Shown piece after piece: positions 8,952-25,271 of a DNA stretch of 64,000 nt. Below the pieces are notes generated by a model. That model saw only the letters and a program-made list of their open reading frames with translations. It searched no databases and was not told the DNA's origin. The stretch comes from Devosia sp. 67-54 (GTDB taxonomy: Bacteria > Pseudomonadota > Alphaproteobacteria > Rhizobiales > Devosiaceae), in the NCBI RefSeq assembly GCF_001899075.1, contig NZ_MKVA01000009.1:62001-126000 (forward strand), given 5' to 3'. Both the position numbers and the translations under genes were made by a program. The first letter of the stretch is position 1, and every line of letters begins with the position of its first letter.

Positions 8952-9019
8952 TTCTGGTCCTTCCCTTTCCTTAGTGTAGTCCATTAAACCTCACGCCGGC
9001 CGGCTTCACAATAAAGCCA

Positions 9020-9769: not shown

Positions 9770-9771
9770 GG

Positions 9772-10722: not shown

Positions 10723-10822
10723 CTATGCTAACGAGCCCACGCCTGAAAATTGCTCTCAAGAAGGTCGACACGCTGGTGAAAACAATTCTTATCGAGCAAG
10801 TGCGCCGATTGCAAGCGACGTG

Positions 10823-11836
10823 ATGGCTGAAATGGACAAGACCCTGCTCGCCATCGATGTCGGTGGCTCGACCTCGCGGGCCTGCCTGATCGACACCAGC
10901 GGCCGCTGTCTCGGGCGTGGCCGCAATCGCGGCGGCAACCCCGCCTCGAACACCCCCGAGCAGGCCGCCGCCGCCATTATTTCCGCAGTCGAGGCCGCCA
11001 TCGCCGAGGCGGCGATCGAACATCCCGACATCGCCGTCGCGCTGATCGCGCTCGCCGGCCCGCAAAAGCACGTCGCGCTGGCGAAACTGGAAACGGCGTT
11101 CCGCGCCGCCGGGCTCACCGGTCCCATCGTCTTTGCCGGCGACGTCCAGGCGATGTTCTCGTCCGTCACTGCGACCACCGAGGGCTATTGCGTCATCGCC
11201 GGCACCGGCGCCGGCGCCGTGCGCATCCGCGGCGGCGAGGTGGAACGCGTCGTCGACCTTGCGGGCTGGCTGGCCGGGGACCTTGGCTCCGGCTTCTGGC
11301 TGGGCCAGCAGGCGGCGCGCGCCGCCGTCGCCGATCTCGAGGGCCGCGGCGAAAAAACGTCGCTGACCTCCGCCCTGCTCGCGGCCTTCGACATCCCCTG
11401 GAGCGAAGACCGCATCCTCGGCCGTCCCGCCCCGCTTCGTCTGTTGATCGACGCGATCTACGCCATTCGCCCGATCGAATTGGCGCGCTTCGCGCCGCTG
11501 GTTTTCGCCGATCGCAACGACCCCGTCGCGACAGGCCTCATCGCGGCGGCCGAGCGCTATCTCGCGCGACACTTTGCCTTGGCGTTCGACGCCACAATGC
11601 CGGGACCTGTCGTCTTGGGCGGGGGCGTCGTCACGCATTTGACCGGCGTCGCGCCCGCCATCGCCGACCTCGTTCGCGCTGCCGGGCACGAGCCCGACAT
11701 CCGGGTGGCCGCCGACGGCTCGGTCGGCGCCGCCGTGCTCGCCCTGCGCGCAGTCGGCATCACCGTCGACGAACCGACGGTCGCGACCATCGCCGCCTCG
11801 ATGGCAGCACCAAGCCTGGGCCCGGCAGCGCCTTAG
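10823..11836 (+). CDS. BadF/BadG-type ATPase, probable N-acetylglucosamine kinase
   Basis: A 337-residue ASKHA-fold kinase of the BadF/BadG/BcrA family. Phosphate 1 motif is LLAIDVGGSTSRACLI, phosphate 2 is YCVIAGTGAGAVRI, the stretch LAGDLGSGFWLGQQAAR is typical of GlcNAc kinases, and the adenosine motif is VVLGGGVVTHL. It should phosphorylate the imported amino sugar with ATP. ATG 10823 or ATG 10832 are both possible; the ribosome site is poor. It is divergent from the RpiR regulator, with a 100-base promoter region between them, and ends in a 4-base tail-to-tail overlap with the DUF5107 gene. Confidence 0.85.
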   Translation: MAEMDKTLLAIDVGGSTSRACLIDTSGRCLGRGRNRGGNPASNTPEQAAAAIISAVEAAIAEAAIEHPDIAVALIALAGPQKHVALAKLETAFRAAGLTGPIVFAGDVQAMFSSVTATTEGYCVIAGTGAGAVRIRGGEVERVVDLAGWLAGDLGSGFWLGQQAARAAVADLEGRGEKTSLTSALLAAFDIPWSEDRILGRPAPLRLLIDAIYAIRPIELARFAPLVFADRNDPVATGLIAAAERYLARHFALAFDATMPGPVVLGGGVVTHLTGVAPAIADLVRAAGHEPDIRVAADGSVGAAVLALRAVGITVDEPTVATIAASMAAPSLGPAAP

Positions 11837-13827
11837 TCTTCGAGTTGGTGCATGCGCAGATCAAGCGCTCGCGGCAGCGGGTGCGTCGTCAGGTCCTGTC
11901 GGATTTCATCGATCGTCGCGAGACGCCCGAGTTCGGCCTCCAGCCGCCCGCGCCGCAGCCGGCCCCACAGGTCCGAGAGCAACGTCTCGCCTTCGCGGAT
12001 CGTGGCGAAGCGCCGGCTCAGCAGCAGCCGTTCGAGCTCGTCGAATTGTCCCGCATCGGCTGCCACGACCGCCCGCGCCAGAATGATCCGCTCGTTGTCG
12101 CGAATGCCCGCCGGCAAGGCCTCGACGAACGCCTTGAGTTCGGCGGGCCGCTCGGCCGCCATGAAATGCGTGGCGATCTCCACTGCCAGCTCGGCGGGTG
12201 CCTCGCCTGTCCGCCAGGCGCGCAGATAGTCCGCTGACGCGGCGCCGGCATCGACGGCCATGAGCGCGCGCAGCCGATAGGCCGGCCAGCTCGGCCGCAG
12301 CGCCAGCGAGCGCTCCACGTGCTCGTACGCTGCGATGCGGTCGCCTCGATCGAGCAGCGCGGTACCCAGTGCCAGTTCATGCAGCCAGCTCGTGCCCTGC
12401 GCCGCAGCACTGCCAGCGATCCGATCGGTCCAGACCTGCGACACCGCGATGCCTTCGGGCACTTGGCGCAGGCTGCGCTCCGAAACGGTGCTCCCTCGCG
12501 CCAGTTCGTCCCAGAAATCGTCGGGCGCCGTCACGGCGAAGTCGAGGCCCGCCGCCAGCGGTCGGCCCAGCAGCAGTTCCTGCCGCTGTCCCCATGGCTC
12601 CCCCTCGGACACGCGTCCATCGAGCGGCAGTCGCGCCTGCTCGCGCAGGAACGCATCGATCTCGGCCAGCTCGGTCGGCGGCACCGCGCCGTCGACAAAA
12701 TCTGCCGCGTGCGCCACCGCCGCGCCGTATTCCGCATCATGAGCGCGACCTGCTTCCAGCCGCACTGGAAAGAATGCCTCGGTCCAGTCGAGCTCGGCGC
12801 CGCCACCGAGCACGAAGCGCTGGTTCTGCGTCGGCGCGACGCCGCTCTGGATTTCGAGGTACTTTCCCTCGCCCGGCCGCGACAGATAATCCATCCAGTT
12901 CTGCCCGCCCGGCGCACTGCCGAAATAGAAGAATTTGCGGCCCACCATTTCGCCGGTGCTGGTCTGTCCCAGCCCGAAACCGTCGCGGCCCACCGACATC
13001 ACGAAGCGCCGATCGGCATGCGGCGCCCGGAAGAACACCGATGTCGCGTTTTCCCAATTGTCCGGGTAGGACGCATCCCAGTCCGGCCGCGGAAACTCGC
13101 AGCGGCCGAGATTGTTGCCCGGCCAGATGTGTTCAACCGAATAGTCGGCGGGACTCAGCACCCGCGTTCCCTCACCCATCGGCGCGGCGATGTTGGTCCA
13201 CCAATAGGCGAGCTTCGCCTCGGCCGACGGATTGACGATGCGTCCGTGGGCATAAAGACACGCACCGTCGCTGGGCAGGAACAGGTCGACCTGCCACGTC
13301 GCCTCGACGATCCGGTCGAATTCGTAGATCCGGAGGACCGGCCCGCGCGGCGTGTCGCGCACGCCCGCGAACACCGGGGCACAGGTGAACGGCGTATGCC
13401 CGGGGATCAGCCCGTTCCACTCGATACCGCCCGAGAACCAGGCGTTGAGCGCGGCAAGGTTGGCCGGCTGGAACACCGGATTGCGGAACACCAGGTCGCG
13501 GCCAGTCTCGAGGTCCTTGAGCTCCAACAGCCGCCCGCCGAGCGAGGGCGCCACGACCGCCCGCAACCGTCCATTCTCGATCGCCACGACATCGAGCTTG
13601 CCCGGCCGCACCTCGCGATCGTAGTCGTCCGAAACCTGATACGGCAGGATCGAATCCTCGCCCCAGCGGAAGCCGTTGGCGCTCTCCTCCTCGGTGAGAC
13701 CGACGTTAGGCGGAGTCGGACGGTCCGGCATCGGCTGCTGCCAACGGAATCGTGGCATGTTGCTAGGACGCCCCAGCCGCGCCATCGGCAGGCTGAGGAC
13801 CTCCTTGCGGATTTGCGTGATTCCCAT
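11833..13827 (-). CDS. DUF5107 domain-containing protein with C-terminal helical (TPR-like) repeats
   Basis: A 664-residue cytoplasmic protein without a signal peptide. The N-terminal two-thirds resembles DUF5107, an aldose-epimerase-like beta-sandwich seen beside sugar catabolic genes: VAPSLGGRLLELKDLETGRD, GGIEWNGLIPGHTPF and YWWTNIAAPMGEGTRVL. The C-terminal third (about 470-650) is alpha-helical with TPR-like Ala/Leu pattern, for example LALGTALLDRGDRIAAYEHV. Its catalytic activity is not known; handling of a sugar anomer or glycoside is a reasonable guess. ATG 13827 has AAGGAG upstream. A dyad at 13874-13888 precedes it, and it overlaps the kinase gene end by four bases. Confidence 0.75.
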   Translation of the reverse strand: MGITQIRKEVLSLPMARLGRPSNMPRFRWQQPMPDRPTPPNVGLTEEESANGFRWGEDSILPYQVSDDYDREVRPGKLDVVAIENGRLRAVVAPSLGGRLLELKDLETGRDLVFRNPVFQPANLAALNAWFSGGIEWNGLIPGHTPFTCAPVFAGVRDTPRGPVLRIYEFDRIVEATWQVDLFLPSDGACLYAHGRIVNPSAEAKLAYWWTNIAAPMGEGTRVLSPADYSVEHIWPGNNLGRCEFPRPDWDASYPDNWENATSVFFRAPHADRRFVMSVGRDGFGLGQTSTGEMVGRKFFYFGSAPGGQNWMDYLSRPGEGKYLEIQSGVAPTQNQRFVLGGGAELDWTEAFFPVRLEAGRAHDAEYGAAVAHAADFVDGAVPPTELAEIDAFLREQARLPLDGRVSEGEPWGQRQELLLGRPLAAGLDFAVTAPDDFWDELARGSTVSERSLRQVPEGIAVSQVWTDRIAGSAAAQGTSWLHELALGTALLDRGDRIAAYEHVERSLALRPSWPAYRLRALMAVDAGAASADYLRAWRTGEAPAELAVEIATHFMAAERPAELKAFVEALPAGIRDNERIILARAVVAADAGQFDELERLLLSRRFATIREGETLLSDLWGRLRRGRLEAELGRLATIDEIRQDLTTHPLPRALDLRMHQLED

Positions 13828-13888: not shown

Positions 13889-13928
13889 GACGGCTCGCCG
13901 ACGCTATGATCGGTGCTGTTTAGAACGA

Positions 13929-13942
13929 TGCACTGGTGTGCA
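13929..13942. promoter_or_regulatory. LacI-type operator 1 upstream of the importer/phosphatase operon
   Basis: TGCACTGGTGTGCA, a dyad of the form TGCA-N6-TGCA. A second copy lies 68 bases downstream (13997-14010), and the same pattern occurs upstream of the LacI gene that ends the region. This suggests common control, possibly with looping. Confidence 0.62.
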
Positions 13943-13996
13943 CGGGTGATCTTTCCCTACATATTCAACTCCTGCAAAACAGCCTATTGCGATCAC

Positions 13997-14085: not shown

Positions 14086-15942
14086 ATGAGTACGCCGGAC
14101 GCGCCGGCGAAGCCGGCCCTTGCCGCAACGCCGCGGCAGAACGAGCAAATGCGGTCGAAGGGCCGCTCGCGTTCCGTCTGGCGGCTGGCCCTGCGCGACC
14201 CCACCACCATCATCGGCATCCTCGCCGCGATCCTGTTCGCCTACCTGATCGTCGTGCCGGTGATCTCGATGCTGTCGGACGCCATCCTGGTGCAATTCGG
14301 CGAGGAGCGCCGGGCGCACGCCGCGGTCGGCATGCCGACCCTCTACTACCTCACGCGCACATTCAGCTCGGCAGTGTCGTCCGACCTGTTCTGGCAACCC
14401 CTGGTTCACACGCTCGAAGTCGCGGCGGGGGCAATCATCCTTGCGGTCGCCATCGGCGGCACCATGGCGTGGCTGCTGAGCCGCACGAACATGCTCGCGC
14501 GCCGCTGGCTCGCCACCGCCCTGATCGTCCCCTACATGCTGCCAGCCTGGACCTTTGCGCTCGCCTGGACGACGCTGTTCAAGAACCGCACCATCGGCGG
14601 CCAGCTCGGCTGGCTCGAGGCCATCGGGCTGTCGCCGCCCGACTGGCTCGCCTATGGCCAGGTCCCCATCACCATCATCATGGCGCTGCACTACGCGCCC
14701 TTCGTGATCCTGCTGTTCGGCAATGCGCTGCGCCGCTTCGACTCGCAGCTCGAGGACTCGGCCCGCGTGCTCGGCGCCGGCACCACCACGGTGACCACCC
14801 AGATCATCCTGCCGCTGATGCTGCCGTCGCTGCTGTCCGCGATCATCCTGATCTTCGCCAAATCGCTGGGCGAGTTCGGCGTGCCCTACGTCCTGGGCCT
14901 GCCGGTCGACTTCGACGTGCTCTCCACCTCGCTCTACCGCAACATCTCCTCGCGCCACACCGGCGTCGCCGCCGTCCTGGCGGGTTCGATCATGCTGATC
15001 GGCATCCTCTCGATGCTGGTCGACGCCCGGCTCGTGCGCGAGGCCCGGCGGTTCGTCACCATCGGCTCGAAGGGCTCGATGAACCGGCTGAGCGCCCTCG
15101 GCCCGCTCCGCCTGCCGGCCACCGGCCTTGCCTTCCTCATCTTCCTGCTCAGTGTCGGCCTGCCGCTCGCCACGCTGTTCCTGTCGACCATCATGCGGCA
15201 GCCGGCGAATTTCTCGCCCGACAATTTCACCCTCGATTTCTGGATCGGACACGATCTCGGCACGGTAGCGCTGCGGACCGGCATTCTACTGTCACCCGAC
15301 CTCTGGAACGCCGCCTGGAACAGTCTGTGGATCGTCGGCACCGCCTCGGTCACCTCCGGCATTCTCGGCCTGCTCGTCGGCTACGTCGTCGCCCGCACGC
15401 TGCTCTGGCCGCTGGCGATGTTCCTGCGGCACGTGACTTTCCTGCCCTATCTGGTCCCCGGCATTGCCTTCGCCGCCGCCTATCTGTCGCTGTTCGCCGT
15501 GCCGCGCGGCCCCATTCCGTCGCTCTATGGTACCGCCTTCATCCTGCTGCTGGCGCTCGTCGCCGAGCAGATGCCCTATGCGTCGCGCGCCGGCATCTCG
15601 GCCATGATGCAGCTCGGCAAGGATCCGGAAGAAGCCGCGCAGATCGCCGGCGCCGGCTGGCTGCGGCGCATGTTGTCGATCGTCATCCCGATCCAGAAGG
15701 GCTCGCTCAGCACCGGCATCCTCATGCCCTTCATCTCGGGCATCAAGGGGCTCAGCCTGTTCGTCATTCTCGCGGTGCCCAGCACCGACGTGCTGACCAC
15801 CTATTCGCTGCGGCTCGTCGACTACCATTATACGCAGGCGGCCAACGCCGTCGTGCTCATCATCGCCGGCCTCGCCTATTTCGGCACGCTGCTGGCGCAG
15901 AAACTGACCAAGACCAATTTGGCCGAAGGACTGGGTGGCTAA
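14086..15942 (+). CDS. FbpB/AfuB-type double-domain ABC permease
   Basis: A 618-residue inner-membrane permease with two homologous halves, as usual for the Fe(III)/phosphosugar (FbpB/AfuB) family. EAA-type cytoplasmic loops are EDSARVLGAGTTTVTTQIIL in the first half and EEAAQIAGAGWLRRMLSIVI in the second. About twelve hydrophobic segments are visible, starting with IIGILAAILFAYLIVVPVIS. The ATG at 14086 opens a polycistronic unit controlled by two LacI-type dyads. Though this family is often annotated as iron transport, the AfuABC relative carries hexose phosphates. The phosphatases downstream favour a phosphorylated organic substrate here (inference). Confidence 0.88.
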   Translation: MSTPDAPAKPALAATPRQNEQMRSKGRSRSVWRLALRDPTTIIGILAAILFAYLIVVPVISMLSDAILVQFGEERRAHAAVGMPTLYYLTRTFSSAVSSDLFWQPLVHTLEVAAGAIILAVAIGGTMAWLLSRTNMLARRWLATALIVPYMLPAWTFALAWTTLFKNRTIGGQLGWLEAIGLSPPDWLAYGQVPITIIMALHYAPFVILLFGNALRRFDSQLEDSARVLGAGTTTVTTQIILPLMLPSLLSAIILIFAKSLGEFGVPYVLGLPVDFDVLSTSLYRNISSRHTGVAAVLAGSIMLIGILSMLVDARLVREARRFVTIGSKGSMNRLSALGPLRLPATGLAFLIFLLSVGLPLATLFLSTIMRQPANFSPDNFTLDFWIGHDLGTVALRTGILLSPDLWNAAWNSLWIVGTASVTSGILGLLVGYVVARTLLWPLAMFLRHVTFLPYLVPGIAFAAAYLSLFAVPRGPIPSLYGTAFILLLALVAEQMPYASRAGISAMMQLGKDPEEAAQIAGAGWLRRMLSIVIPIQKGSLSTGILMPFISGIKGLSLFVILAVPSTDVLTTYSLRLVDYHYTQAANAVVLIIAGLAYFGTLLAQKLTKTNLAEGLGG

Positions 15943-15943
15943 G

Positions 15944-17062
15944 ATGCCGACGATCAGCCTGCGCAATGTCGAAAAAAGCTACGGCAACGGCGCCCTCAAC
16001 GCCGTGAGCGACCTCGATCTCGAGATCGGCGACGGCGAATTCATGTGCCTGCTCGGCCCCTCCGGCTGCGGCAAGACCACGACGCTGCGCATGATCGCCG
16101 GCCTCGAACATCTGAGCGGCGGCGAGATCCAGGTCGGCAGCGACAAGGTGGACGATGTCGACGCCGGCATCTTCGTGCCGCCGGAGCGACGCGGCATGGG
16201 ACTGGTGTTCCAGAGCTACGCGCTGTGGCCGCATCTGACCATCGAGCGCAACACCGATTTCGGCCTCCGGCTGCGCAAGGTCCCGAAGCCCGAGCGCGAA
16301 GCGCGCGTCACCGAAGTCATGCAGGCTCTGGGGATCGAGCAATACCGCGACCGCTATCCGTCGCAACTGTCGGGCGGCCAGCAGCAGCGCGTGGCGCTCG
16401 CCCGCATGCTCGCCGTCAATCCGCAGGTCCTGCTGCTCGATGAGCCGCTGTCCAACCTCGATGCACGCCTGCGCCTCGAGATGCGGGCCGAGCTCAAGCG
16501 CCTGCACGAGGCGTTCAAGACCACCATCGTCTTCGTCACTCACGACCAGTGGGAAGCCATGACGCTGGCCACCACCATCGCCGTCATGCGCGACGGCCGG
16601 CTGCAGCAGGTGGGAACTCCCAATGACATCTACGATCGGCCGGCCAACCGTTTCGTCGCCGAATTCGTCGGCAATCCACCCATCAACCTCGTCGAGATGA
16701 GCGCGGCCGAAACGTCGACTCTGGCAAGGGCGCTGCGGCCGGTGCTCGGCGAGCGCACCGACGTCGGATCGGTCGGCATCCGGCCCGAAGCGCTGCATCT
16801 GGCCACCACCGATGCCGAGGTTCCGACCGGAGCCTTCCACGTCCGCGCGCGCATCAGTGGCGTGCTGCCGACCGGGGGAAGCTGGATCGTCGAAATTGCC
16901 GCCGGCAACGACAAGCTGTTTGCGGCCGCGCACGAGCCGCCCGGCTTTACCGCCGGCGACGACGTGGTCGTCTGGGCGAAACCGGCGGCGCTACACCTGT
17001 TCAATGCCGCGGGCGATCGGCTGGCAGGTTTGGCGTCGCCGGACCACGCCCGCAAGAACTGA
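15944..17062 (+). CDS. FbpC/AfuC-type ABC transporter ATP-binding protein
   Basis: A 372-residue cytoplasmic ATPase of the MOI/CUT1 type. Walker A is GPSGCGKTTTLRMIAG, the Q-loop VFQSYALWPHL, the signature LSGGQQQRVALARML, and Walker B LLLDEPLSNLDARL, followed by the H-loop VTHDQ. A regulatory TOBE-like domain forms the last ~120 residues. ATG 15944 is one base after the permease stop; GTG 15935 is an alternative that would overlap it. It energises the permease just upstream and serves the two tandem binding proteins just downstream. Confidence 0.92.
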   Translation: MPTISLRNVEKSYGNGALNAVSDLDLEIGDGEFMCLLGPSGCGKTTTLRMIAGLEHLSGGEIQVGSDKVDDVDAGIFVPPERRGMGLVFQSYALWPHLTIERNTDFGLRLRKVPKPEREARVTEVMQALGIEQYRDRYPSQLSGGQQQRVALARMLAVNPQVLLLDEPLSNLDARLRLEMRAELKRLHEAFKTTIVFVTHDQWEAMTLATTIAVMRDGRLQQVGTPNDIYDRPANRFVAEFVGNPPINLVEMSAAETSTLARALRPVLGERTDVGSVGIRPEALHLATTDAEVPTGAFHVRARISGVLPTGGSWIVEIAAGNDKLFAAAHEPPGFTAGDDVVVWAKPAALHLFNAAGDRLAGLASPDHARKN

Positions 17063-17081
17063 CACCGAGGAGGGGAACGAA

Positions 17082-18197
17082 TTGACATCATCATCCACCA
17101 TCTGCCGCTGGCTCATGGGAGCAGCGTTGCTCGCCGGCTCTGCCATGCCGGCGCTAGCCGACGACTTCAGCCTCGACGCGCTGATCGCGGCCGCCAAGCA
17201 GGAAGGCCCGATCACCGTCTACGCCACCACCGGCAAGATCGTTGAAACGGCGCAGAACTTCACCAAGAAGTACGGCGTCCAGGCCACCGGCAAGAAGGTC
17301 AACGAGCCGACCCAGGTCGAGCTCTTGATCCGCGAGTCGCAGGCCGGCAAGATCGTCGGCGATGTATCCGTCTCCGGTGACGTCGCGGCTTCTGTGGCGC
17401 AACTGATCCCGGAAGGCATCGCCTATAGCTGGGTGCCGCCGGACCTCGCTGCCGACATCCCCGCCCCGCTGCAAAATCCGCTGGTGGTGGTCAGCGACGA
17501 GCACGTCATCACCTACAACACCGAAGCCTACGACAAGTGCCCGATCACCAATCTCTGGCAGCTCACCGAGCCCGAGTGGAAGGGCAAGGTGGCAATGCTC
17601 GATCCGCTCGACAAGCCGAACTACGCCGACTGGTTCAACCAGATGGCGATGCATCACGACGCCGACCTGGCCAAGGCCTATCAGGACCTCTACGGCAAGC
17701 CGCTTGATGCGGAGCCCGGCAGCGCCACCAAGGCCTGGGTCAAGGCGCTCGCCGCCAACGCCCCGCTGCTCGCCGATTCCGAAGCGGTCTCGGCCGCCGT
17801 CGGCGCTCCGGGACAGAAGGCGCCGTTCGTCGGCCTCAACTCGGTGGCCAAGTTCCGCAACAATGTCGACAAGGGTTACAAGCTCGGCATCTGCGGCGGC
17901 ATCGATCCGGTCTCGGGCTTCATCTATCCGGGCTTCGGCCTCATCGCCAAGGGCACCAAGAGCCCCAACGCCGCCAAGCTCTTCATCCACTATCTGATGA
18001 CCGAGGAAGGCATCTCCAACCAGACCATCGACGGCAAGATGTCGGGCAACAGCAAGATACCGCCCAATCCCGACGAACAATCGGGCATTGCCGCCTACAT
18101 GAACCAGCTTACGCCCTACGACAGCTCCACGGCCGCCGATGACTACGACGCCCGCCAGGACTGGCAGGATTTCTGGACCGTCAACTACAAGCGCTGA
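17082..18197 (+). CDS. periplasmic substrate-binding protein 1 of the FbpA/AfuA-like importer
   Basis: A 371-residue binding protein of ABC family 1. I chose TTG at 17082 because GAGGAGGGG stands seven to eight bases upstream and the start gives a complete signal peptide (WLMGAALLAGSAMPALA, cleaved before DDFSLDAL). The mature protein begins ITVYATTGKIVETAQNFTKK, the FbpA/AfuA style of opening. It is clearly a tandem paralogue of the next gene: both share DDFSLDALIAAAK, the TEAYDKCPITNLWQLTEPEW-type core, APGQK and the QDWQDFW-type end. The ligand is unknown; a phosphorylated sugar or polyol is proposed from the phosphatases downstream. Confidence 0.88.
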   Translation: MTSSSTICRWLMGAALLAGSAMPALADDFSLDALIAAAKQEGPITVYATTGKIVETAQNFTKKYGVQATGKKVNEPTQVELLIRESQAGKIVGDVSVSGDVAASVAQLIPEGIAYSWVPPDLAADIPAPLQNPLVVVSDEHVITYNTEAYDKCPITNLWQLTEPEWKGKVAMLDPLDKPNYADWFNQMAMHHDADLAKAYQDLYGKPLDAEPGSATKAWVKALAANAPLLADSEAVSAAVGAPGQKAPFVGLNSVAKFRNNVDKGYKLGICGGIDPVSGFIYPGFGLIAKGTKSPNAAKLFIHYLMTEEGISNQTIDGKMSGNSKIPPNPDEQSGIAAYMNQLTPYDSSTAADDYDARQDWQDFWTVNYKR

Positions 18198-18221
18198 ACA
18201 AGACAGAGAGGAGAGACCACC

Positions 18222-19343
18222 ATGAGCAGGACGCTCACCGCCGTCGCCGCCCTGGCCATCGCCGGCGTCGCTGCGGCCGCCATCGCCGCGCCGGCCCTGG
18301 CCGACGACTTCAGCCTCGACGCCCTCATCGCCGCCGCCAAGGGTGAGGCGCCGATCACCGTCTACGACAGCACGGGCAAGATCGTCGAGCAGGCAAAGGC
18401 CTTCACCAAGAAATACGGCGTCGAGGCCACCGGCACCAAGATCAAGGCGCCCGACTCGCTCGAAATGGTGATCCGCGAACACCAGGCCAACAATGTGCAG
18501 ACCGACGTGATCCTGCTCAGCGATCCGCCGGCCGCCATCGCCCAGCTGCTGCCCGAGAAATTCGCCGAAAGCTGGATGCCGCCCGACATGCTCGACAAGG
18601 TGCCCAAGCTCTACCAGGACCCGCTGGTCGTCACCAACGACGCTAACGTCTGGGCCTACAACACCGAGGTCTATGACAAATGCCCGGTGAGCAACATCTG
18701 GCAGCTCACCGAGCCGCAGTGGAAGGGCAAGGTCGCCCTGCAGGACCCGCTGGGCAAGCCGAACTACGACGACTGGTTCAACCAGATGCAGACGCATGAC
18801 GACGCCAAGGTCGCCGCCGCCTACAAGGCCCTCTACGGCAAAGACCTCAAGACCGACGAGGACAGCGCCACCAAGGCATGGGTGAAAGCCCTGGCGCAGA
18901 ACGCGCCGCTGTTGACCAGCAGCGACGACGAAGCCTCGGCGGCGGCCGGCGCTCCGGGGCAGAAGGAGCCCTTCATGGCGCTGGTGAGTTCCGCCAAGTT
19001 CCGCAACAATGCCGACATGGGCTACAAACTCGGCCTGTGCACCGGCATGGACCCGTGGTCCGGCTGGCTGTCGTCGAAAGTGGCGCTCATTTCGTCGGGC
19101 ACCAACAGCCCCAACGCCTCGAAGCTGTTCATCCACTACATGCTGACCGAGGAAGGCATCGCGCCGCAGGCGATCGACGGCAAGCGCTCGACCAACATGT
19201 CGCTGTCGCTGCCCGCCGACGAACCTTCAGGAATTGGCAAGGTGTGGGACCAGCTCGAGGACTATGACGTCTCGACCGCCGCGTCGGACTGGGACGCGCG
19301 CGAGGACTGGCAGGATTTCTGGCGTCTCAACTATCACAAGTAA
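18222..19343 (+). CDS. periplasmic substrate-binding protein 2 of the FbpA/AfuA-like importer
   Basis: A 373-residue binding protein with a Sec signal peptide (LAIAGVAAAAIAAPALA, cleaved before DDFSLDAL). It is paralogous to the preceding gene along its whole length, with the same order of blocks (ITVYDSTGKIVEQAKAFTKK, WQLTEPQWKGKVALQDPLGK, GAPGQKEPF, DARED followed by WQDFW). The two starts of the mature proteins are almost identical while ligand-contact regions differ, for example QTDVILLSDPPAAI here against VGDVSVSGDVAASV in the first. This suggests a recent duplication with a change in ligand range. A strong terminator follows. Confidence 0.9.
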   Translation: MSRTLTAVAALAIAGVAAAAIAAPALADDFSLDALIAAAKGEAPITVYDSTGKIVEQAKAFTKKYGVEATGTKIKAPDSLEMVIREHQANNVQTDVILLSDPPAAIAQLLPEKFAESWMPPDMLDKVPKLYQDPLVVTNDANVWAYNTEVYDKCPVSNIWQLTEPQWKGKVALQDPLGKPNYDDWFNQMQTHDDAKVAAAYKALYGKDLKTDEDSATKAWVKALAQNAPLLTSSDDEASAAAGAPGQKEPFMALVSSAKFRNNADMGYKLGLCTGMDPWSGWLSSKVALISSGTNSPNASKLFIHYMLTEEGIAPQAIDGKRSTNMSLSLPADEPSGIGKVWDQLEDYDVSTAASDWDAREDWQDFWRLNYHK

Positions 19344-19356
19344 TACTCCCGACTGT

Positions 19357-19391
19357 GCCGGATCGGAATTGCGTTCTGGTCCGGCCTTTTT
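19357..19391 (+). terminator. rho-independent terminator after the second binding-protein gene
   Basis: A 12-base-pair stem (GCCGGATCGGAA with TTCTGGTCCGGC, two G-U pairs), loop TTGCG, then CTTTTT. It lies between the transporter genes and the phosphatase genes, so it probably acts as a partial terminator setting transporter above enzyme expression, unless the phosphatases have their own promoter. Confidence 0.8.
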
Positions 19392-19448
19392 CCCGATTTG
19401 GCGCGGTGCGCGATAGCCGCCGGACGAACACGACGAGGATCACCTGGC

Positions 19449-20264
19449 ATGAGGCCGGAAAACCGTATTCCGACGGGCAGGTTGTGCCGCCCCAAGGCGC
19501 TGCTGCTTGACTTCGGCGGCGTCGTGGTGCTTACCCGCCACAACCCGGATTGGCCCGAGCGCCTGGCCGCTCACGTCGCGGCCCTACTGCGCGATGTGGG
19601 CGCGGCCGACCCGCGACTGCCTACGCCGTCCATCGCTGCCGACATCCGAGCCGCCGCCATCGCCGATTCGCACTGGAAGAACGCCATGTCGCGGCCCTAC
19701 GCGCCGCGCGAGCTGCGCCACGAAGAGTATTGGGGCGACTTCGTCGCCGCCGACTGGCCGGCAGCGGCTCGCGATGCAGTGGTCGCCGAAGCCGCCGAAC
19801 TCTGCCGCGTCATGGGCCATCTGCGCTCCGAGCGCACGCTGCGCGACGGCATGCTCGACCTGCTCGACGCCGCTCGCGCCCGTTCCATTCCCGTCGGCAT
19901 CGTCAGCAACGCGCTGGCCGGTCAGGTGCATGTCGACTTCCTCACCGAGCACGGCCTGCTCGACCGCTTCGCCGCCATCGTTCACTCCGACGCCGTGGCC
20001 ATGCGCAAGCCCAACCCCGGCATGATCGAGTATGCCGCGGGGCTGCTTTCGGTCGCGCCTGCCGACTGCTGGTATGTCGGCGACAACTACGATCGCGACG
20101 TGCTGTGCGGCCGCCGCGCCGGCGTTGGCGGAAACATCCTGATGGAAGCCCGCAAGACCTACGATCCCCCCTACGATCTCGACCTGCGCCCCGACGCCAT
20201 CGTCGCCGATCCGGTCGGCCTGCTGGCGTTGTTCACGGGCATGACCGGCGAGGTGGCAGCATGA
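19449..20264 (+). CDS. HAD-family phosphatase (subfamily IA-like)
   Basis: A 271-residue cytoplasmic HAD hydrolase. Motif I is LLLDFGGVVV (nucleophile D21; the usual second Asp is Gly, as in several phosphatases of the YihX kind). Motif II is VGIVSNALAG, motif III the Lys in MRKPNPGMIEYA, and motif IV WYVGDNYDRDVLCG. A helical cap lies between motifs I and II. It should remove phosphate from a small phosphorylated metabolite. ATG 19449 follows GAGGA. Its stop overlaps the next start (ATGA), so it is coupled to the inositol-monophosphatase-like gene. No signal peptide. Confidence 0.85.
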   Translation: MRPENRIPTGRLCRPKALLLDFGGVVVLTRHNPDWPERLAAHVAALLRDVGAADPRLPTPSIAADIRAAAIADSHWKNAMSRPYAPRELRHEEYWGDFVAADWPAAARDAVVAEAAELCRVMGHLRSERTLRDGMLDLLDAARARSIPVGIVSNALAGQVHVDFLTEHGLLDRFAAIVHSDAVAMRKPNPGMIEYAAGLLSVAPADCWYVGDNYDRDVLCGRRAGVGGNILMEARKTYDPPYDLDLRPDAIVADPVGLLALFTGMTGEVAA

Positions 20265-21136
20265 GCGATCACGCCGAAGCCACCTATCTGCGCGACATCG
20301 CGATCCGCGCCGCGCGGCTGGTCGAAGCGCCGCTGCGCACCGCCTTCCGCTCCGGCATGGACGTCGCCTACAAGCGCGACTGGCACGACGTGGTGACCGT
20401 CCACGACAAGCAGGGCGAAGCCACCATTGCCGAATTCATTCTGCGCGAAGTGCCCGACTCCACCCTGGTGGGTGAAGAGGGCGGGCATCGCGGCAGCGGC
20501 CGTGTCCGCTGGTACGTCGATCCCATCGACGGCACCGCCAATTTCGCACGCGGCTTCGCCTTCTGGTGCGTGTCGATCGCCGCGGTGGTCGACGACGTGC
20601 CGGTTGCCGGCGTCGTGCTCGACCCTGTGGCCGGTCACCTGTTTGCCGCCGACCTCGATGGCGCCACATGCAATGGCCGCCCCATCCGCTCGCGCGCTCG
20701 CGTCGACGAGCGCGAAGCGACGTTGATCACCGGCTATCCGGCGAGCCGCGATTTCGAGCGTGACGGACGACCCAAGGCGCTCACCCATTTCGCCAACCTC
20801 GCCGAGGCGTTCCAGACGCTGCGGCGGCCGGGCAGCGCCGCACTCAGCATTTCGCACGTCGCTGCCGGCTGGGTCGATGCCGCCCTTGGCCTCTGGGTCA
20901 ATCCCTGGGACGTCAGCGCCGCCATTCTCATCCTGCAGCAGGCGGGTGGCCGCTATTTGCCGTTTGACCTCGGCAAGGTACCACCCGGCACGCCCGCCCA
21001 TCTATGTCCCGGCTACGTCGCGCTCGGCGAGGGCGCCGACTATCCCACTCTGCTTAGCATCGCCGGCGAGATTTCGCTCGACCGCAGCCGGGGTGAGCGC
21101 CCTGTCCCATCGTCAACCACGCCTGTCCACGCCTGA
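20261..21136 (+). CDS. inositol monophosphatase family protein 1
   Basis: A 291-residue metal-dependent phosphatase of the IMPase/FBPase fold. The metal site is complete: Glu in LVGEEGGHRG, the DPxDGTxN motif as VDPIDGTANFARGF, and the distal Asp in WVNPWDVSAAIL. Substrates in the family include inositol phosphates, histidinol phosphate, sugar phosphates and nucleotide bisphosphates, so the exact one is open. It has no signal peptide and is translationally coupled to the HAD gene. The next gene is a second, diverged member of the same family. Confidence 0.88.
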   Translation: MSDHAEATYLRDIAIRAARLVEAPLRTAFRSGMDVAYKRDWHDVVTVHDKQGEATIAEFILREVPDSTLVGEEGGHRGSGRVRWYVDPIDGTANFARGFAFWCVSIAAVVDDVPVAGVVLDPVAGHLFAADLDGATCNGRPIRSRARVDEREATLITGYPASRDFERDGRPKALTHFANLAEAFQTLRRPGSAALSISHVAAGWVDAALGLWVNPWDVSAAILILQQAGGRYLPFDLGKVPPGTPAHLCPGYVALGEGADYPTLLSIAGEISLDRSRGERPVPSSTTPVHA

Positions 21137-21202
21137 CCAACGAACGAGACCCGCATTGACCACCCCCTCCATTTGCACCGCGACCCGGAAAGGATCTTTC
21201 CG

Positions 21203-22021
21203 ATGGCTGCCGTGACCGCCCTGCCCTCGGACGAGACCCGCCTCGATCTCGACCGGCGCGAAGCGGCGTGTCGCGCGTTGGCGCTATCGGCCGGGCAACT
21301 CGCCAGCCGCGCCTTCGCCGAACGCGGCGCCAGCGGCGCCGTCAGCCTCAAGGGGCCGCAGGATTTCCTGACCGAGACCGACGCCGCCGTCGAGCAGCAT
21401 CTGCGCACCGGCCTCGCCGCTGCCTTCCCCGATGACGGCTTCCTCGGTGAAGAGGGCGGCGGCGTCCTCAAGGACCGCGTCTGGGTAGTCGACCCCATCG
21501 ACGGGACCGCCAATTTCGCCCGCGCCATTCCGCACTTCTGCATTTCCATCGCGTTCGTCGCCGCCGGCCGCATCGAACTCGGCGCCATCTGCAACCCCAG
21601 CACGGCCGAGCTCTATTTCGCCCGTCGCGGCCGCGGCGCCACCCGCAACGGCATGCCTATCCACGTTGCCGCCACCAGCGACTACCGCGCGGCCTGCGTC
21701 GAGTTGGGCTGGTCGACGCGCGTCCCCAACGCCGACTATGTCGGAGCGCTGAGCCGCATCCTCGACCGTGGCGCCAACGTGCGCCGCGCCGCCTCCGGCG
21801 CGCTCGGCCTCGCTTATGTCGCCGATGGTCGGTCCGACGCCTATGCCGAGCTGCACATGCATCCGTGGGATTGCCTCGCCGGCCTGCTGCTGGTTGAAGA
21901 GGCTGGCGGCATCGTCGCCCCCTTCCTCGAGCTTGGCGGGCTCGAGCATGGCGGCGCCGTTCTGGCCGCCACACCAGCCATTGCCGGTGGGATCAGCGAG
22001 GTTACCGGAATTGCACTCTAG
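21203..22021 (+). CDS. inositol monophosphatase family protein 2
   Basis: A 272-residue IMPase-family phosphatase. The motifs are GFLGEEGGGVLKD, VDPIDGTANFARAIPHFCIS and MHPWDCLAGLLLVEEAGG, so all metal ligands are present. It shares fold and motifs with the preceding gene but is well diverged elsewhere, which suggests a different substrate or step rather than a recent duplication. ATG 21203 follows AAGGA; TTG at 21173 is a longer alternative. Cytoplasmic, in the same operon direction as the other phosphatases. Confidence 0.87.
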   Translation: MAAVTALPSDETRLDLDRREAACRALALSAGQLASRAFAERGASGAVSLKGPQDFLTETDAAVEQHLRTGLAAAFPDDGFLGEEGGGVLKDRVWVVDPIDGTANFARAIPHFCISIAFVAAGRIELGAICNPSTAELYFARRGRGATRNGMPIHVAATSDYRAACVELGWSTRVPNADYVGALSRILDRGANVRRAASGALGLAYVADGRSDAYAELHMHPWDCLAGLLLVEEAGGIVAPFLELGGLEHGGAVLAATPAIAGGISEVTGIAL

Positions 22022-22631
22022 TGAAAAGCATGCGGTGTCGCCGCGCTACGATCGAGCGAGCATCAGCCGCGTAGCCGAGAACGTGCAGCCATATGGCGTC
22101 GATTTGTTCATTAGTGGCATGGAGGGGGCCAGCAATCTCGCGCTGTTGCACGCCAACGATATCGGCATCGTCGTCAACTGCGCCGTCAATCTCGACCTCG
22201 ATTTCGTCGACCAGCCGCTGTCGCCGCCCGGCCAGGCGGTCGCCTATGGCTACAGCCCCATCCGCTACTACAAGCTCGGGCTGATCGACGGCGACGGCAA
22301 CCCCGACACCATGCTGCTCGCCGGCTATTACCTGCTCAAGGGGGCGCTCGAGCAGGTGCTGCCCGACAAGCCGAGCTACCCCATGCGCGGTGGCCGCAAC
22401 GTGCTGCTCAACTGCCGCGCCGGGCGCAGCCGCTCGGCCATTCTCGCCTCGCTGTTCCTGTGGCAGACCGAGCCGGCGCGCTTTCCCAGCCTCGAGGCGG
22501 CGCTGGACCAGGTGCGCCAGCGCCGTGAGCTGCATCCGGACGAATGGTTCGAAACCCCGAAACCGGTGCTGATCGCTGCCGCCCGCCGCGCCGGCGCCTG
22601 GGCTGGCATGATCGAGGCGTCCGGCCACTAG
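22011..22631 (+). CDS. CX5R dual-specificity-type (tyrosine-phosphatase-like) phosphatase
   Basis: A roughly 206-residue protein with the cysteine phosphatase signature CRAGRSR (Cys135, Arg141) preceded by a hydrophobic strand (VLLN), and a general-acid candidate Asp in LGLIDGDGNPD. This layout fits the dual-specificity/PTP-like family, which contains phosphatases of proteins and of inositol phosphates. The start is uncertain: TTG 22011 with GAGG upstream overlaps the previous gene by 11 bases; GTG 22035 is an alternative. It stands two bases before the metallophosphoesterase gene. No signal peptide. The substrate is unknown; a phosphorylated small molecule is favoured by the neighbours. Confidence 0.75.
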   Translation: MHSSEKHAVSPRYDRASISRVAENVQPYGVDLFISGMEGASNLALLHANDIGIVVNCAVNLDLDFVDQPLSPPGQAVAYGYSPIRYYKLGLIDGDGNPDTMLLAGYYLLKGALEQVLPDKPSYPMRGGRNVLLNCRAGRSRSAILASLFLWQTEPARFPSLEAALDQVRQRRELHPDEWFETPKPVLIAAARRAGAWAGMIEASGH

Positions 22632-22633
22632 CC

Positions 22634-24313
22634 ATGCAGATCGCCGTCGTCGCCGACCCGCACTACCACGACATTTTCGGCTGGCCGGACGCCACCGGCG
22701 AGCGGCCGGCGCTGCGCAGCTTCGCCGACTCCATGGCCTCGACCCGCATTTTCAACGAGAGCTTTGCCGTTTTCCGCGCCGTGCTCGACGATATCGTGCG
22801 TGCCGGCATTTCCATCGTCGTCATCGTCGGCGATTTGACGGACGATGGCCAGGCTGCGACCGTCCGTTCGGTCAATACGCTGCTCGCCGACTACACCAAC
22901 CGCCACGGCCTCCGCTTCTATATGACGCCGGGCAACCACGACCTCTTCGCCCTCGCCGGCCGCCACCAGTCCAAGCGGTTCCTCAACACCGACGGCAGCA
23001 CCCTCTTGGTAACCAGCGACGCGGCGGAATCGGCCGGATCGTCCATTGCGCGCCTGGTGACGCCCGAAATGCAGTGCGGCGGCTATGCCGATGGCCTCGA
23101 AGCCTACGGCCACGGCTTCTTCCGTCGCCCGGAGGATCTGCATTGGGAAAGCCCGTTCGGCGCCAGCGACGCTCTGGCAGACCGGCGCTTTGTCATCCGC
23201 TCCGCCGACCACGGCATGTCCGTCCAGATGGTCGACGCTTCCTACCTGGTCGAGCCCGTCCCCGGCCTCTGGCTGCTGTCGCTCGACGGCAACGTGTTCG
23301 AGCCGCGCAACGGCAGCAGCGACCCGCTCGCCGAAGCCACCTACTACGACAGCAGCAACGCCGGCTGGAACGCGGTGCTCAAGCACAAGCGCTTCCTGTT
23401 CGACTGGGCGGCGGACGTCGCGCGCCGGGCGCGCCAGCAGGGCAAGCAACTGCTCGCCTTCTCCCACTATCCGCTGATCGACCCGCAGGCCGACAGCTTC
23501 GCCGACGAACTGGCCCTGTTTGGCCAGTCGAGCGCGGTGCGCCGCTCGCCTCGCCCGCCGGTCGTCGCCGCCGGCGTCGACACCGGCATCGGGGTGCATT
23601 TCAGCGGCCATCTGCACGTCAATGGGACGACCGCCGTGTTCGACAAGGGCAAGTTCCTCGTCAATATCGCGGTCCCGTCGCTGGTGGCCTATCCCGCAGC
23701 CTATAAGCGCGTCCGCTTCGACGCCGACAGCATGTGCATCGAAACCGTAGCGGTCGACGAGGCTCCCGGCTTCGATGCCGCCTTCGCCGGCTATCGCAGC
23801 GAGGCCCGCCGCGAGGGCTCCGGCACCGCCGGGCTCGACGCCGTGTCAAGCTATGCCGATTTCTGCGACATGCACCTGCGCGAGCTGGTCCGGCATCGCT
23901 ATCTGCCGCTCGAATCCCCCGCCGACCTTGCCGGCCTCATCGGCGATCTTTCGATGGCGCAACTGGCCGAGCTGGCCGGCCTCGAAGCCGGCCTCGATCC
24001 GCTTGCCACCACCCTACCCGCCTTCGAATTCCTGGTGGACTGGTATCGCCTGCGCAAAGCGCGCGAGTTGGCCCTGCCGCTCGTCGCGCCGCAACGCCTG
24101 GCGCTCTACCGCGAGCTCTGCGCCCGCTTTCGCCGCGGCCATTGGCCGGAGGGCAGCGTCGCCGCCCGCCTCGCCGCGATTTTCCGCATTCTCGAGATCA
24201 ACCTAGGCGGCCTGCCCTCGGATCGCTTCGTCATCGACCTGAGGAACGGCCGGGTCACTTCGGCCGGACGGACCGACGCCACACCGGCTCCGCTTGCAGG
24301 TAATGCGGCCTAG
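22634..24313 (+). CDS. calcineurin-like metallophosphoesterase with C-terminal extension
   Basis: A 559-residue cytoplasmic phosphoesterase. All the dimetal motifs are visible: VVADPHYHD (D and H), VIVGDLTDDGQ, TPGNHDLFAL, LLAFSHYPLI and FSGHLHVNG. After the catalytic domain (about 1-380) comes a ~180-residue helical extension, SSYADFCDMHLRELVRHRYL onward, that I do not recognise. It likely cleaves a phosphomonoester or phosphodiester produced from the imported substrate. It is the last phosphatase gene, and its end overlaps the convergent LacI gene by 59 bases. Confidence 0.87.
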   Translation: MQIAVVADPHYHDIFGWPDATGERPALRSFADSMASTRIFNESFAVFRAVLDDIVRAGISIVVIVGDLTDDGQAATVRSVNTLLADYTNRHGLRFYMTPGNHDLFALAGRHQSKRFLNTDGSTLLVTSDAAESAGSSIARLVTPEMQCGGYADGLEAYGHGFFRRPEDLHWESPFGASDALADRRFVIRSADHGMSVQMVDASYLVEPVPGLWLLSLDGNVFEPRNGSSDPLAEATYYDSSNAGWNAVLKHKRFLFDWAADVARRARQQGKQLLAFSHYPLIDPQADSFADELALFGQSSAVRRSPRPPVVAAGVDTGIGVHFSGHLHVNGTTAVFDKGKFLVNIAVPSLVAYPAAYKRVRFDADSMCIETVAVDEAPGFDAAFAGYRSEARREGSGTAGLDAVSSYADFCDMHLRELVRHRYLPLESPADLAGLIGDLSMAQLAELAGLEAGLDPLATTLPAFEFLVDWYRLRKARELALPLVAPQRLALYRELCARFRRGHWPEGSVAARLAAIFRILEINLGGLPSDRFVIDLRNGRVTSAGRTDATPAPLAGNAA

Positions 24314-25271
24314 GCGCCGGCGGCGCCGGTGACTCGACCGACAGCAGGTGCGCGATATGCTCAGCCATCCGCTCGATCGGCTGCCGGAAGGTCGTGAGCT
24401 GATACGACACCCAACCGGCCTGTTCGATGTCGTCAAAACCCACGATGCAGAAATCGTCGGGAATGCGCAGGCCGAACTCGTGCCGAGCCGCGTCCATGAA
24501 GCCGCAGGCCAACAGATCGGTGACGCAGAAAGCAGCGTCCGGCCGGTCGGCGCGGCTCAGCAGTGCGCGCGCCGCCTCGAGCCCCGTGGCGTAGGCCGTC
24601 GGCCCCGCACGGACCAGCGAGACGAGAACTCCCCCGGCTTTGGCGGCGGCGGCGAAGGCCTGCTCGCGACCGACGAGGCTGCTGGTCCCCGCCTGCGACG
24701 AGACGATGCCGATATGCCGGCAGCCGGCGCGATACAGCATGTCGAAGGCGCGGCGGGCCGCATCCTCGTTGTCGACGATCAGATGCTCGGTGCCGGGATG
24801 CCGATCTTCGCGGTTGATCAGGATGACGTGCTGCCCGTTGGCGATACAGGTGTCGATCAGCGACGACGCCGGCGATCCCGACAGTACCACCGAGGCGTCG
24901 GCACGATAGTTGAGCGTCTGCCGCAGCGCCGCCTCGACACTTCCCGAGGGGCCCGCGGCGTTGATCACCATCGGCACCTTGTCGACGTCCTGCAGCCGCC
25001 GCGTCAGCGCCTCCAGCATCTTGGCCTGGAACGGCGCCTGCAGATCCGCGGCGATCAGGCAGACGATGCCGGAGCGCTCATGGATCAGCCCGCGCGCCAG
25101 ATGGTTGACGTGGTAGCCGAGCGACTCGGCCGCCTCCAGCACCTTGCGCCGGGTCGGCTCCGACACGCTGGCGCCCGGCGTGAAGGTCCGCGACACGGCC
25201 GAACGCGATACGCCGGCGCGCTCCGCCACCTGCTGCGCGCTTACGAAGGATTTGCCGACCCGAAAGGCCAT
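24255..25271 (-). CDS. LacI-family regulator of the importer/phosphatase region
   Basis: A 338-residue LacI/GalR regulator: DNA-binding head SAQQVAERAGVSRSAVSRTF followed by a hinge helix (LGYHVNHLARGL), and a periplasmic-binding-protein-like effector domain (HIGIVSSQAGTSSLVGREQA; DDFCIVGFDDIEQAGWVSYQ). ATG 25271 fits the family N-terminus. Its own promoter carries TGCA-N6-TGCA dyads like those upstream of the permease gene at 14086, so it probably controls that operon and itself. Its 3' end overlaps the metallophosphoesterase gene by 59 bases on the other strand. Confidence 0.88.
   Translation of the reverse strand: MAFRVGKSFVSAQQVAERAGVSRSAVSRTFTPGASVSEPTRRKVLEAAESLGYHVNHLARGLIHERSGIVCLIAADLQAPFQAKMLEALTRRLQDVDKVPMVINAAGPSGSVEAALRQTLNYRADASVVLSGSPASSLIDTCIANGQHVILINREDRHPGTEHLIVDNEDAARRAFDMLYRAGCRHIGIVSSQAGTSSLVGREQAFAAAAKAGGVLVSLVRAGPTAYATGLEAARALLSRADRPDAAFCVTDLLACGFMDAARHEFGLRIPDDFCIVGFDDIEQAGWVSYQLTTFRQPIERMAEHIAHLLSVESPAPPAPRPHYLQAEPVWRRSVRPK

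Follow-up and report, generated by a model that had tools for sequence, protein, structure and literature searches.

Among the described systems, the closest to the one reported here are importers of phosphate esters. AfuABC, which carries hexose and heptose phosphates, was once annotated as an iron uptake system but transports its phosphate ester intact (PMC4546632), and P5PAB imports pyridoxal-5'-phosphate by means of a binding protein, P5PA, that is 54% identical to AfuA (PMC8427247). Since both AfuA (PMC4546632) and P5PA (PMC8427247) do so, iron-annotated members of this transporter class can carry phosphate esters. We analysed a window of 64,000 nt from Devosia sp. 67-54 (contig NZ_MKVA01000009.1, positions 62,001 to 126,000), in which genes for an importer of this class are followed by genes for five phosphatases and by a convergent gene for a LacI-family regulator. 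The cluster resembles AfuABC in its transporter class and in having a cluster D binding protein, but is distant from it in sequence, and differs in having its own phosphatases and LacI regulator, and in lying near phytase and inositol catabolism (iol) genes in relatives. P5PAB is alike in being an AfuA relative with a phosphorylated ring as ligand, and hence offers a precedent for ligand drift within the class; however, it serves vitamin uptake, and the available portion of its description mentions no phosphatases (PMC8427247).

Other known systems share individual features with the cluster. The agrocinopine (acc) operon of Agrobacterium combines an ABC importer with an IMPase-like phosphatase (IMPase, inositol monophosphatase) and a phosphodiesterase for the use of a sugar phosphodiester, but its transporter and regulator classes are different. 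The likeness to PhnSTUV and PhnT2-PhnU2 lies in the best NCBIfam model for the permease, PhnU2, but the scores fall under the cut-offs, both for the permease (128 bits against 593.25) and for the ATPase with the corresponding 2-aminoethylphosphonate transporter model (325.9 bits against 457.7); membership of the PhnT2/PhnU2 transporters was therefore rejected. Bacterial MINPP and PhyK phytases are encoded beside the module in relatives, but, unlike the five enzymes of the window, they have N-termini that look signal-like by eye, and their expected site of action is outside the cytoplasm. We know of no iol system that includes phosphatases or an FbpA-type importer. The iol catabolic pathway, which adjoins the module in some genomes, would take the expected end product of the cluster, and its known uptake is of free inositol (PMC12482443).

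We consider it probable that the cluster is a LacI-controlled system for the uptake and cytosolic dephosphorylation of inositol phosphates. The sequence-only reading of this DNA had proposed an imported phosphorylated compound, dephosphorylated stepwise in the cytoplasm, with several candidate substrates; the linkage to phytases and iol genes and the shared operator-like palindrome described below support this proposal and are the reason for narrowing it to inositol phosphates. Gene content, conservation, palindromes and the linkage to phytases, iol genes and sodium/phosphate (Na/Pi) transporters in relatives were computed from 33 loci, found by a pattern scan of alpha- and gammaproteobacterial genome contigs with the CX5R phosphatase and thus representing close relatives only; the script that assigned gene content to the loci discards weak matches. 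The CX5R phosphatase, permease, ATPase, binding protein, an IMPase and the LacI regulator occur together in 30 of these loci, with a divergent importer in two (L003 and L013); the full core is lacking in L007, which lies on a 6.7-kb contig, L018 and L030. The linkage of the genes for importer, IMPase, CX5R and LacI in 30/33 loci is not a chance association, and the co-conservation of phosphatases with importer on which the sequence-only reading had staked its proposal has withstood this survey.

The idea of a unit of five phosphatases stands only in part. All five are present in the window and in one same-family relative (L144, for which Pfam was run), but IMPase-1 is found in just 5/33 loci (at only 29% identity in L013) and in the same-family relatives L144-L146, the metallophosphoesterase (MPE) in 2/33 and in no gammaproteobacterial locus, and the HAD phosphatase in none of the 33 and in one (L144) of the three same-family relatives with the module. 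The MPE was seen in the window, these three relatives, Shinella and S. meliloti, and each of L144-L146 has IMPase-1, IMPase-2, CX5R, MPE, LacI and Na/Pi-cotransporter-PhoU genes. These counts leave one IMPase and CX5R, with the LacI regulator, as the conserved core, the MPE and HAD enzymes being accessory and the phosphatases beyond the pair alphaproteobacterial additions. The regulator, a core part, had been missed in the earlier list of genes, whose nine members were all confirmed at their given positions. The two core phosphatases form a single called open reading frame (ORF) in L017, L019, L020 and L024, both domains being confirmed in L020, and one annotated coding sequence covers both on Klebsiella and Erwinia plasmids. 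This fusion is seen in some enterobacteria; a nucleotide search with the Enterobacter IMPase-CX5R gene found no match in E. coli.

In a sample of 297 genomes from the order to which Devosia belongs, 12 had a CX5R match at an E value of 1e-25 or better, of which five were close (the window, three from the same family and one from the same order) and seven divergent. The loci L043-L049 (3.3-3.5 kb each) have a divergent CX5R gene (30-37% identity where a gene was called) adjoining a metallo-beta-lactamase-fold hydrolase, the latter confirmed with Pfam in L046 and recognised by eye in the other divergent loci; a LacI regulator (40-41%) is present in L046-L049 and the end of a permease (37-41%) in L044-L047. 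In two loci from Candidatus Symbiopectobacterium (L021 and L033), the permease, ATPase or LacI gene is broken into several ORFs, in a manner resembling decay.

Phytases provide one of the links to inositol phosphates. A histidine phytase (MINPP or PhyK) and a porin are encoded beside the module in 8/33 loci, in three arrangements: six Halomonas/Vreelandella loci have MINPP and porin genes after the regulator; a Vibrio locus has a divergent MINPP-porin pair, separated from the permease by a region with one exact palindrome; and a Klebsiella indica locus (L066) has genes for a KdgM-type porin and a PhyK-type phytase before the permease. The MINPP assignment is based on the match of the L022 gene to the multiple inositol polyphosphate histidine phosphatase 4fdt in the PDB (E value 1.3e-38), and the PhyK assignment on that of the L066 gene to the 3-phytase 2wnh (6.8e-89), which we take to be the Klebsiella enzyme PhyK. 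The K. indica layout recurs, together with the exact palindrome, on a plasmid of K. pneumoniae that was typed as conjugative. This locus (L150; NZ_CP031851.1, 6216-14970) comprises the KdgM porin, phytase, importer, IMPase/CX5R and LacI genes, and its host is a blood isolate of K. pneumoniae carrying it on an IncF plasmid. The module is also found on rhizobial megaplasmids. A further juxtaposition was seen in a Pantoea genome with the module (G317), where a separate IMPase-like gene, identified by eye, directly precedes a PhyK-looking PF00328 gene (L050, 598-2691).

The same palindrome also reaches phytases lying apart from the module. Among 48 genomes of the family of Marinomonas rhizomae, a strict 14-base form was found in 13 and its reversed control in one; seven of the 13 sites are at the permease of the module, three at an unlinked MINPP gene and three elsewhere. 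Unlinked MINPP-porin operons of one MINPP type have the exact 12-base palindrome in 4/4 loci of this family. The phytase family PF00328 is present in ten of the 48 genomes and CX5R in 20, with all ten falling within the 20 (hypergeometric 2.8e-5, a figure inflated by relatedness, which is uncorrected). Counts of PF00328 are lower bounds, as the search of G319 missed a gene in L026 that is 89% identical to a MINPP query.

The fate of the expected products can likewise be followed in neighbouring genes. Genes for iol catabolism lie beside the module in 5/33 loci: iolG, B, A, E, D and C score over the NCBIfam cut-offs in a Marinomonas arctica locus and iolE, D and C in a Cucumibacter locus, whilst similar iol genes are found in L014, L015 and L018, the last being from Marinomonas pontica and having CX5R, in the absence of the importer, beside iolG and iolB. 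In a same-family relative of the window, iolB borders the cluster, with iolE around 0.1 kb further out. Across the module genomes, iolE exceeds the cut-off in 23/33, and the window genome has two copies. A gene for a Na/Pi-cotransporter-PhoU protein lies inside the cluster of all three same-family relatives with the module (L144-L146), directly behind an exact palindrome in L145, and is also in or adjoining the cluster in two of the 33 loci (L002 and L003) and in S. meliloti (L035 and L152). This reads as a means of disposing of phosphate freed in the cytoplasm, with export as the presumed direction of transport.

A search for palindromes in 31 regions around permease starts recovered TTTGCACnnnnGTGCAAA in 30, the exception being S. 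meliloti (L035). By direct count, TTGCACnnnnGTGCAA is exact in 24/33 loci and present with one mismatch in six more, giving 30/33 in total, whilst no site for the reversed palindrome occurs in these 650,426 bases. In 29 loci the site coincides with or precedes the called start of the permease, and in L007 it precedes CX5R. Allowing at most one mismatch, three sites are present in the window, against 0.07 expected and a count of three reached in 0/100 shuffles; the 4.2 Mb genome has five such sites in total, including these three. At up to two mismatches the window has four sites, against a mean of 2.22 in 100 shuffles; as this is not above chance, the site at 13928 is considered weak. The sole exact palindrome of the window genome (C2:60817) is inside a called ORF and looks like a chance occurrence. 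The cluster has the features of a LacI-family regulon, namely a regulator with the LacI DNA-binding domain and a sugar-binding domain, and palindromes at both its target and its own gene. This arrangement fits control of the cluster by a self-regulating LacI-type regulator, with binding to these palindromes predicted. The positions of sites and genes are given in Table 1.

Table 1. Genes of the Devosia sp. 67-54 cluster and palindromes associated with them, in window coordinates
Feature	Position	Strand	Remarks
Weaker operator-like palindrome ATGCACTGGTGTGCAC	13928..13943		2 mismatches; 68 bp before main site
Likely operator CTGCACAGGTGTGCAA	13996..14011		90 bp upstream of permease start
Fused ABC permease, FbpB/AfuB/PhnU class	14086..15942	+	Pfam BPD_transp_1
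ABC transporter ATPase	15944..17062	+	Pfam ABC_tran with TOBE_2
Periplasmic binding protein 1, class II / cluster D type	17082..18197	+	TTG start; Pfam SBP_bac_11
Periplasmic binding protein 2, paralogue of binding protein 1	18222..19343	+	60% identity to binding protein 1
HAD-family phosphatase, accessory	19449..20264	+	Pfam HAD; catalytic motifs
IMPase-1, inositol monophosphatase fold	20261..21136	+	Pfam Inositol_P; catalytic motifs
IMPase-2, inositol monophosphatase fold, core	21203..22021	+	Pfam Inositol_P
Operator-like site TTGCACTCTAGTGAAA	22011..22026		IMPase-2/CX5R junction
CX5R phosphatase, dual-specificity-phosphatase fold, core	22035..22631	+	GTG start; CRAGRSR; Pfam DSPc
MPE, calcineurin-like, accessory	22634..24313	+	Pfam Metallophos; in alphaproteobacterial loci only
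LacI-family transcriptional regulator	24255..25271	-	LacI DNA-binding and sugar-binding domains; relative in 31/33 loci
Likely operator TTGCAATCCCGTGCAA	25356..25371		85 bp upstream of regulator start

The composition of the cluster is as the sequence-only reading had it: Pfam agrees with an importer followed by HAD, two IMPase, CX5R and MPE genes, and together with the catalytic motifs upholds the count of five phosphatases of four folds. The genes do overlap or nearly abut, with spacing ranging from a 4-bp overlap (HAD/IMPase-1) up to 105 bp, and the regulator and MPE genes overlap at the 3' end of the latter. The catalytic motifs, as inspected, are kept in all five enzymes: DFGGV, KPNP and GD in the HAD phosphatase; EE, DPIDGT and WD in both IMPases; CRAGRSR at residues 127-133 of CX5R; and DPH, GDLTD, GNHD, SH and GHLH in the MPE. 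None has a signal peptide by eye, again in agreement with the earlier claim. This verdict rests on inspection, because a crude hydrophobicity maximum (0.5-1.43 for the enzymes, 1.39 for binding protein 1 and 2.3 for binding protein 2) fails to separate CX5R, at 1.43, from binding protein 1.

The IMPases belong to the inositol monophosphatase superfamily (PF00459) by gathering score and by their motifs, and a profile built from both and their relatives is closest to inositol-1-monophosphatases (E value 3.7e-68); among the matches listed, they do not reach the NCBIfam equivalog cut-offs for inositol-1-monophosphatase, HisN or CysQ. CX5R scores 29.6 bits with Pfam DSPc (PF00782), under the gathering score of 33.5. 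Its structural model (predicted local distance difference test, pLDDT, 88.2) has VHR/DUSP3 as its best fold match (E value 1.2e-7; modest template modelling scores of 0.58-0.59 by query length), and the best 50 of 985 PDB fold matches are dual-specificity-type phosphatases, judged by their titles; the signature and the fold together place it in the dual-specificity phosphatase class. Its identification as a protein tyrosine phosphatase-like (cysteine) phytase was rejected, given the lack of a signal peptide by eye and the dual-specificity type of those best 50 fold matches. The only PDB relative of the MPE at an E value of 0.001 is LMO2642 (2xmo), which we take to be a cyclic-nucleotide phosphodiesterase-like protein. 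Among the matches listed, NCBIfam equivalog cut-offs were unreached by the permease, ATPase, IMPases and HAD phosphatase, and CX5R, the MPE and both binding proteins matched no NCBIfam model; hence the substrate is not readable from family names.

The fused permease, the ATPase with its TOBE domain and the cluster D binding protein identify the importer as one of the FbpABC/AfuABC class. Public records label the permease "iron ABC transporter permease", in line with the earlier suspicion that an iron-transport label would hide the function, and the precedent then cited, hexose-phosphate transport by AfuABC, agrees with the published account (PMC4546632). Binding protein 2 matched no Pfam model at an E value of 0.001, and binding protein 1 alone matched no PDB chain at the same threshold; a binding-protein profile matched the AfuA entries 4r72-4r75 (E value 5e-9), with partial coverage. 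The AlphaFold2 model of binding protein 2 (pLDDT 91.7) has as its nearest folds HitA, MctA, FbpA, FutA and VcA0625, the last titled in its entry as a glucose-6-phosphate (G6P)-binding protein. We cannot tell from the modelled fold or the sequence of the binding proteins whether the ligand is Fe(III) or an organophosphate. The ligand residues of AfuA are Ser37, Thr150, His205, Asp206 and Glu229 (PMC4546632). When residues binding iron or sugar phosphate were mapped, the profile of the C-lobe was weak and AfuA was not among its listed matches. In FbpA, the iron ligands are adjacent tyrosines in the C-lobe. By alignment, 30/33 binding proteins have an AK[FY]R motif (all but L003, L013 and L030), 27/33 having the narrower S.AK[FY]R, at a position that is presumably the place of the FbpA Tyr-Tyr ligands, although this mapping could not be confirmed. 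A Tyr-Tyr pair is present in only 3/33 rows, near residue 298, where equivalence to the FbpA site is also unconfirmed. That AK[FY]R has a role in phosphate binding is a guess.

From these observations we infer a mechanism, including the ligand, the DNA binding, the activities of the enzymes and their order, the inducer and the direction of phosphate flow. Lower inositol phosphates, originating from phytate through phytases of the cell itself or of other organisms, or else from phosphoinositides, would cross the outer membrane and be captured by the two periplasmic binding proteins, and the FbpB/FbpC-type transporter would move them into the cytoplasm. There CX5R and the IMPases would strip the phosphates stepwise to leave myo-inositol, a plausible division of labour being for CX5R to open positions closed to the IMPase. 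The myo-inositol would enter iol catabolism in many of these bacteria, whilst the freed phosphate would be used or exported, in relatives via the Na/Pi-PhoU protein. With the MPE and HAD enzymes the range of substrates may be broader, taking in, for instance, glycerophosphoinositol and other phosphodiesters. The regulator would be freed from the TTGCACnnnnGTGCAA operators by an inducer, probably inositol or one of its phosphates.

A number of observations weigh against inositol phosphates as the substrate. Since the loci were found with CX5R patterns, the linkage figures extend no further than close relatives of CX5R, and nine other sampled genomes of the same family had no CX5R match. The strict 14-base palindrome occurs in 2/398 Pseudomonadota genomes, at the module in neither (whether these two hold the module was unchecked), against three for the reversed control, and the window itself has no strict 14-base form. 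Phytase linkage is confined to gammaproteobacteria and the linked lineages are few: PF00328 is present anywhere in 15/28 module genomes, comprising, by the classes read from record titles, 14/17 gammaproteobacterial but only 1/11 alphaproteobacterial genomes, several of these genes look by eye like glucose-1-phosphatases, and in the Marinomonas family 7/11 loci with PF00328 genes of the other MINPP type have no palindrome at up to two mismatches within around 4.1 kb. PF02333 was found in none of the 33 genomes, and the window genome has neither a PF00328 nor a PF02333 phytase, other classes not having been searched; hence the organism would need inositol phosphates released by others, or a phytase of an unsearched class. 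By fold, the binding protein is equally near to a G6P binder and to proteins that bind iron or metal-citrate. Finally, iolE over the cut-off is missing from 10/33 module genomes, five of which (G306, G311, G313, G315 and G320) have no match at all, and only 3/8 phytase-linked genomes (G318, G321 and G322) have it. Inositol thus does not serve as a carbon source in every case, and for some gammaproteobacteria the use of phosphorus may come first.

This shortage of iolE, affecting five of the eight phytase-linked genomes, also favours a system for scavenging phosphorus in which inositol is mostly waste, as does the presence of several phosphatases able to liberate phosphate. A LacI-type regulator and the iol linkage in 5/33 loci argue otherwise, and the Na/Pi-PhoU protein in the cluster of relatives fits the disposal of surplus phosphate, making this explanation unlikely. 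The alternatives overlap one another and, in part, the reading as inositol-phosphate utilisation, and their probabilities do not sum to one. Slightly less credence is given to the scavenging mainly of glycerophosphoinositol or other phosphodiesters, with the MPE cutting the diester and the IMPase and CX5R finishing the monoester. The MPE genes of the window, its three relatives, Shinella and S. meliloti would be explained, as would the phosphodiesterase-like character of LMO2642; but the enzyme is encoded in just two loci of the 33, and never in the gammaproteobacterial loci, eight of which carry phytases. Phosphodiester use may nevertheless hold as an addition in the alphaproteobacteria, the group in which the window has its closest relatives as judged by gene content.

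An iron importer, perhaps for ferric-inositol-phosphate chelates whose chelator the phosphatases destroy to free the metal, would account for the name of the permease in public records and for the top Foldseek matches being the ferric-binding HitA, FbpA and FutA and the metal-citrate-binding MctA; phytate is, moreover, a chelator of iron. Nevertheless, a LacI-family regulator with a conserved palindrome, and iol and Na/Pi genes at the same loci, speak for carbon and phosphate instead, and most of the binding proteins have AK[FY]R at the presumed place of the tyrosine ligands, subject to the unconfirmed mapping, so that we regard an iron importer as very improbable. Least probable of all appears an importer of hexose or other sugar phosphates like AfuABC, from which the phosphatases would free the sugar. 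It would suit the transporter class, the presence of AfuA and VcA0625 among the solved relatives, and the LacI-type regulation of a carbon source, but the linked genes are phytases and iol genes, and an IMPase-CX5R pair would presumably be needless if hexose phosphates could enter glycolysis directly.

Around the cluster, the permease gene has a divergent neighbour encoding a DUF5107 domain (11833-13827, reverse strand), on which the palindromes at 13928 and 13996 might act as well. Further upstream (5653-11836) are genes for a sugar ABC transporter, a SIS-domain protein, an RpiR-type regulator and a BadF/N-acetylglucosamine-kinase-like protein, all named by eye. Just downstream of the cluster is an ORF of 6660 residues (26217-46199, forward strand), the N-terminus of which resembles haemagglutinin-type adhesins by eye. 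RNA families and tRNAs were sought in the window and none was found.

Phytate is a major store of organic phosphorus in soils and seeds, and to our knowledge the bacterial handling of the lower inositol phosphates left by phytases is poorly known. The available portion of a 2025 review of gut inositol metabolism names no bacterial importer of inositol phosphates (PMC12482443), and a search of the open-access literature, subscription papers lying outside it, found no description of such a system among the matches listed; presumed locus tags of S. meliloti led to a single, unrelated paper. The parts are of known kinds; the combination is new. It seems likely, if less assuredly so than for the window cluster itself, that these loci represent a widespread and horizontally moving system for inositol-phosphate utilisation, with an iron-annotated importer, a cytosolic IMPase and dual-specificity-fold phosphatase, which certain enterobacteria have as a fusion, Na/Pi-PhoU for the disposal of phosphate, and a LacI regulator that sometimes also governs a phytase and a porin. 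If so, the system would account for a set of transporters that now bear an iron uptake annotation, and would offer for joint testing a family of importers, a pair of cytosolic enzymes and a regulator whose site is defined, along with the question of its inducer. The trait would lie on plasmids, including the conjugative-typed plasmid of Klebsiella and rhizobial megaplasmids, and the breakdown of phytate in these bacteria would be completed within the cell, rather than in the periplasm.

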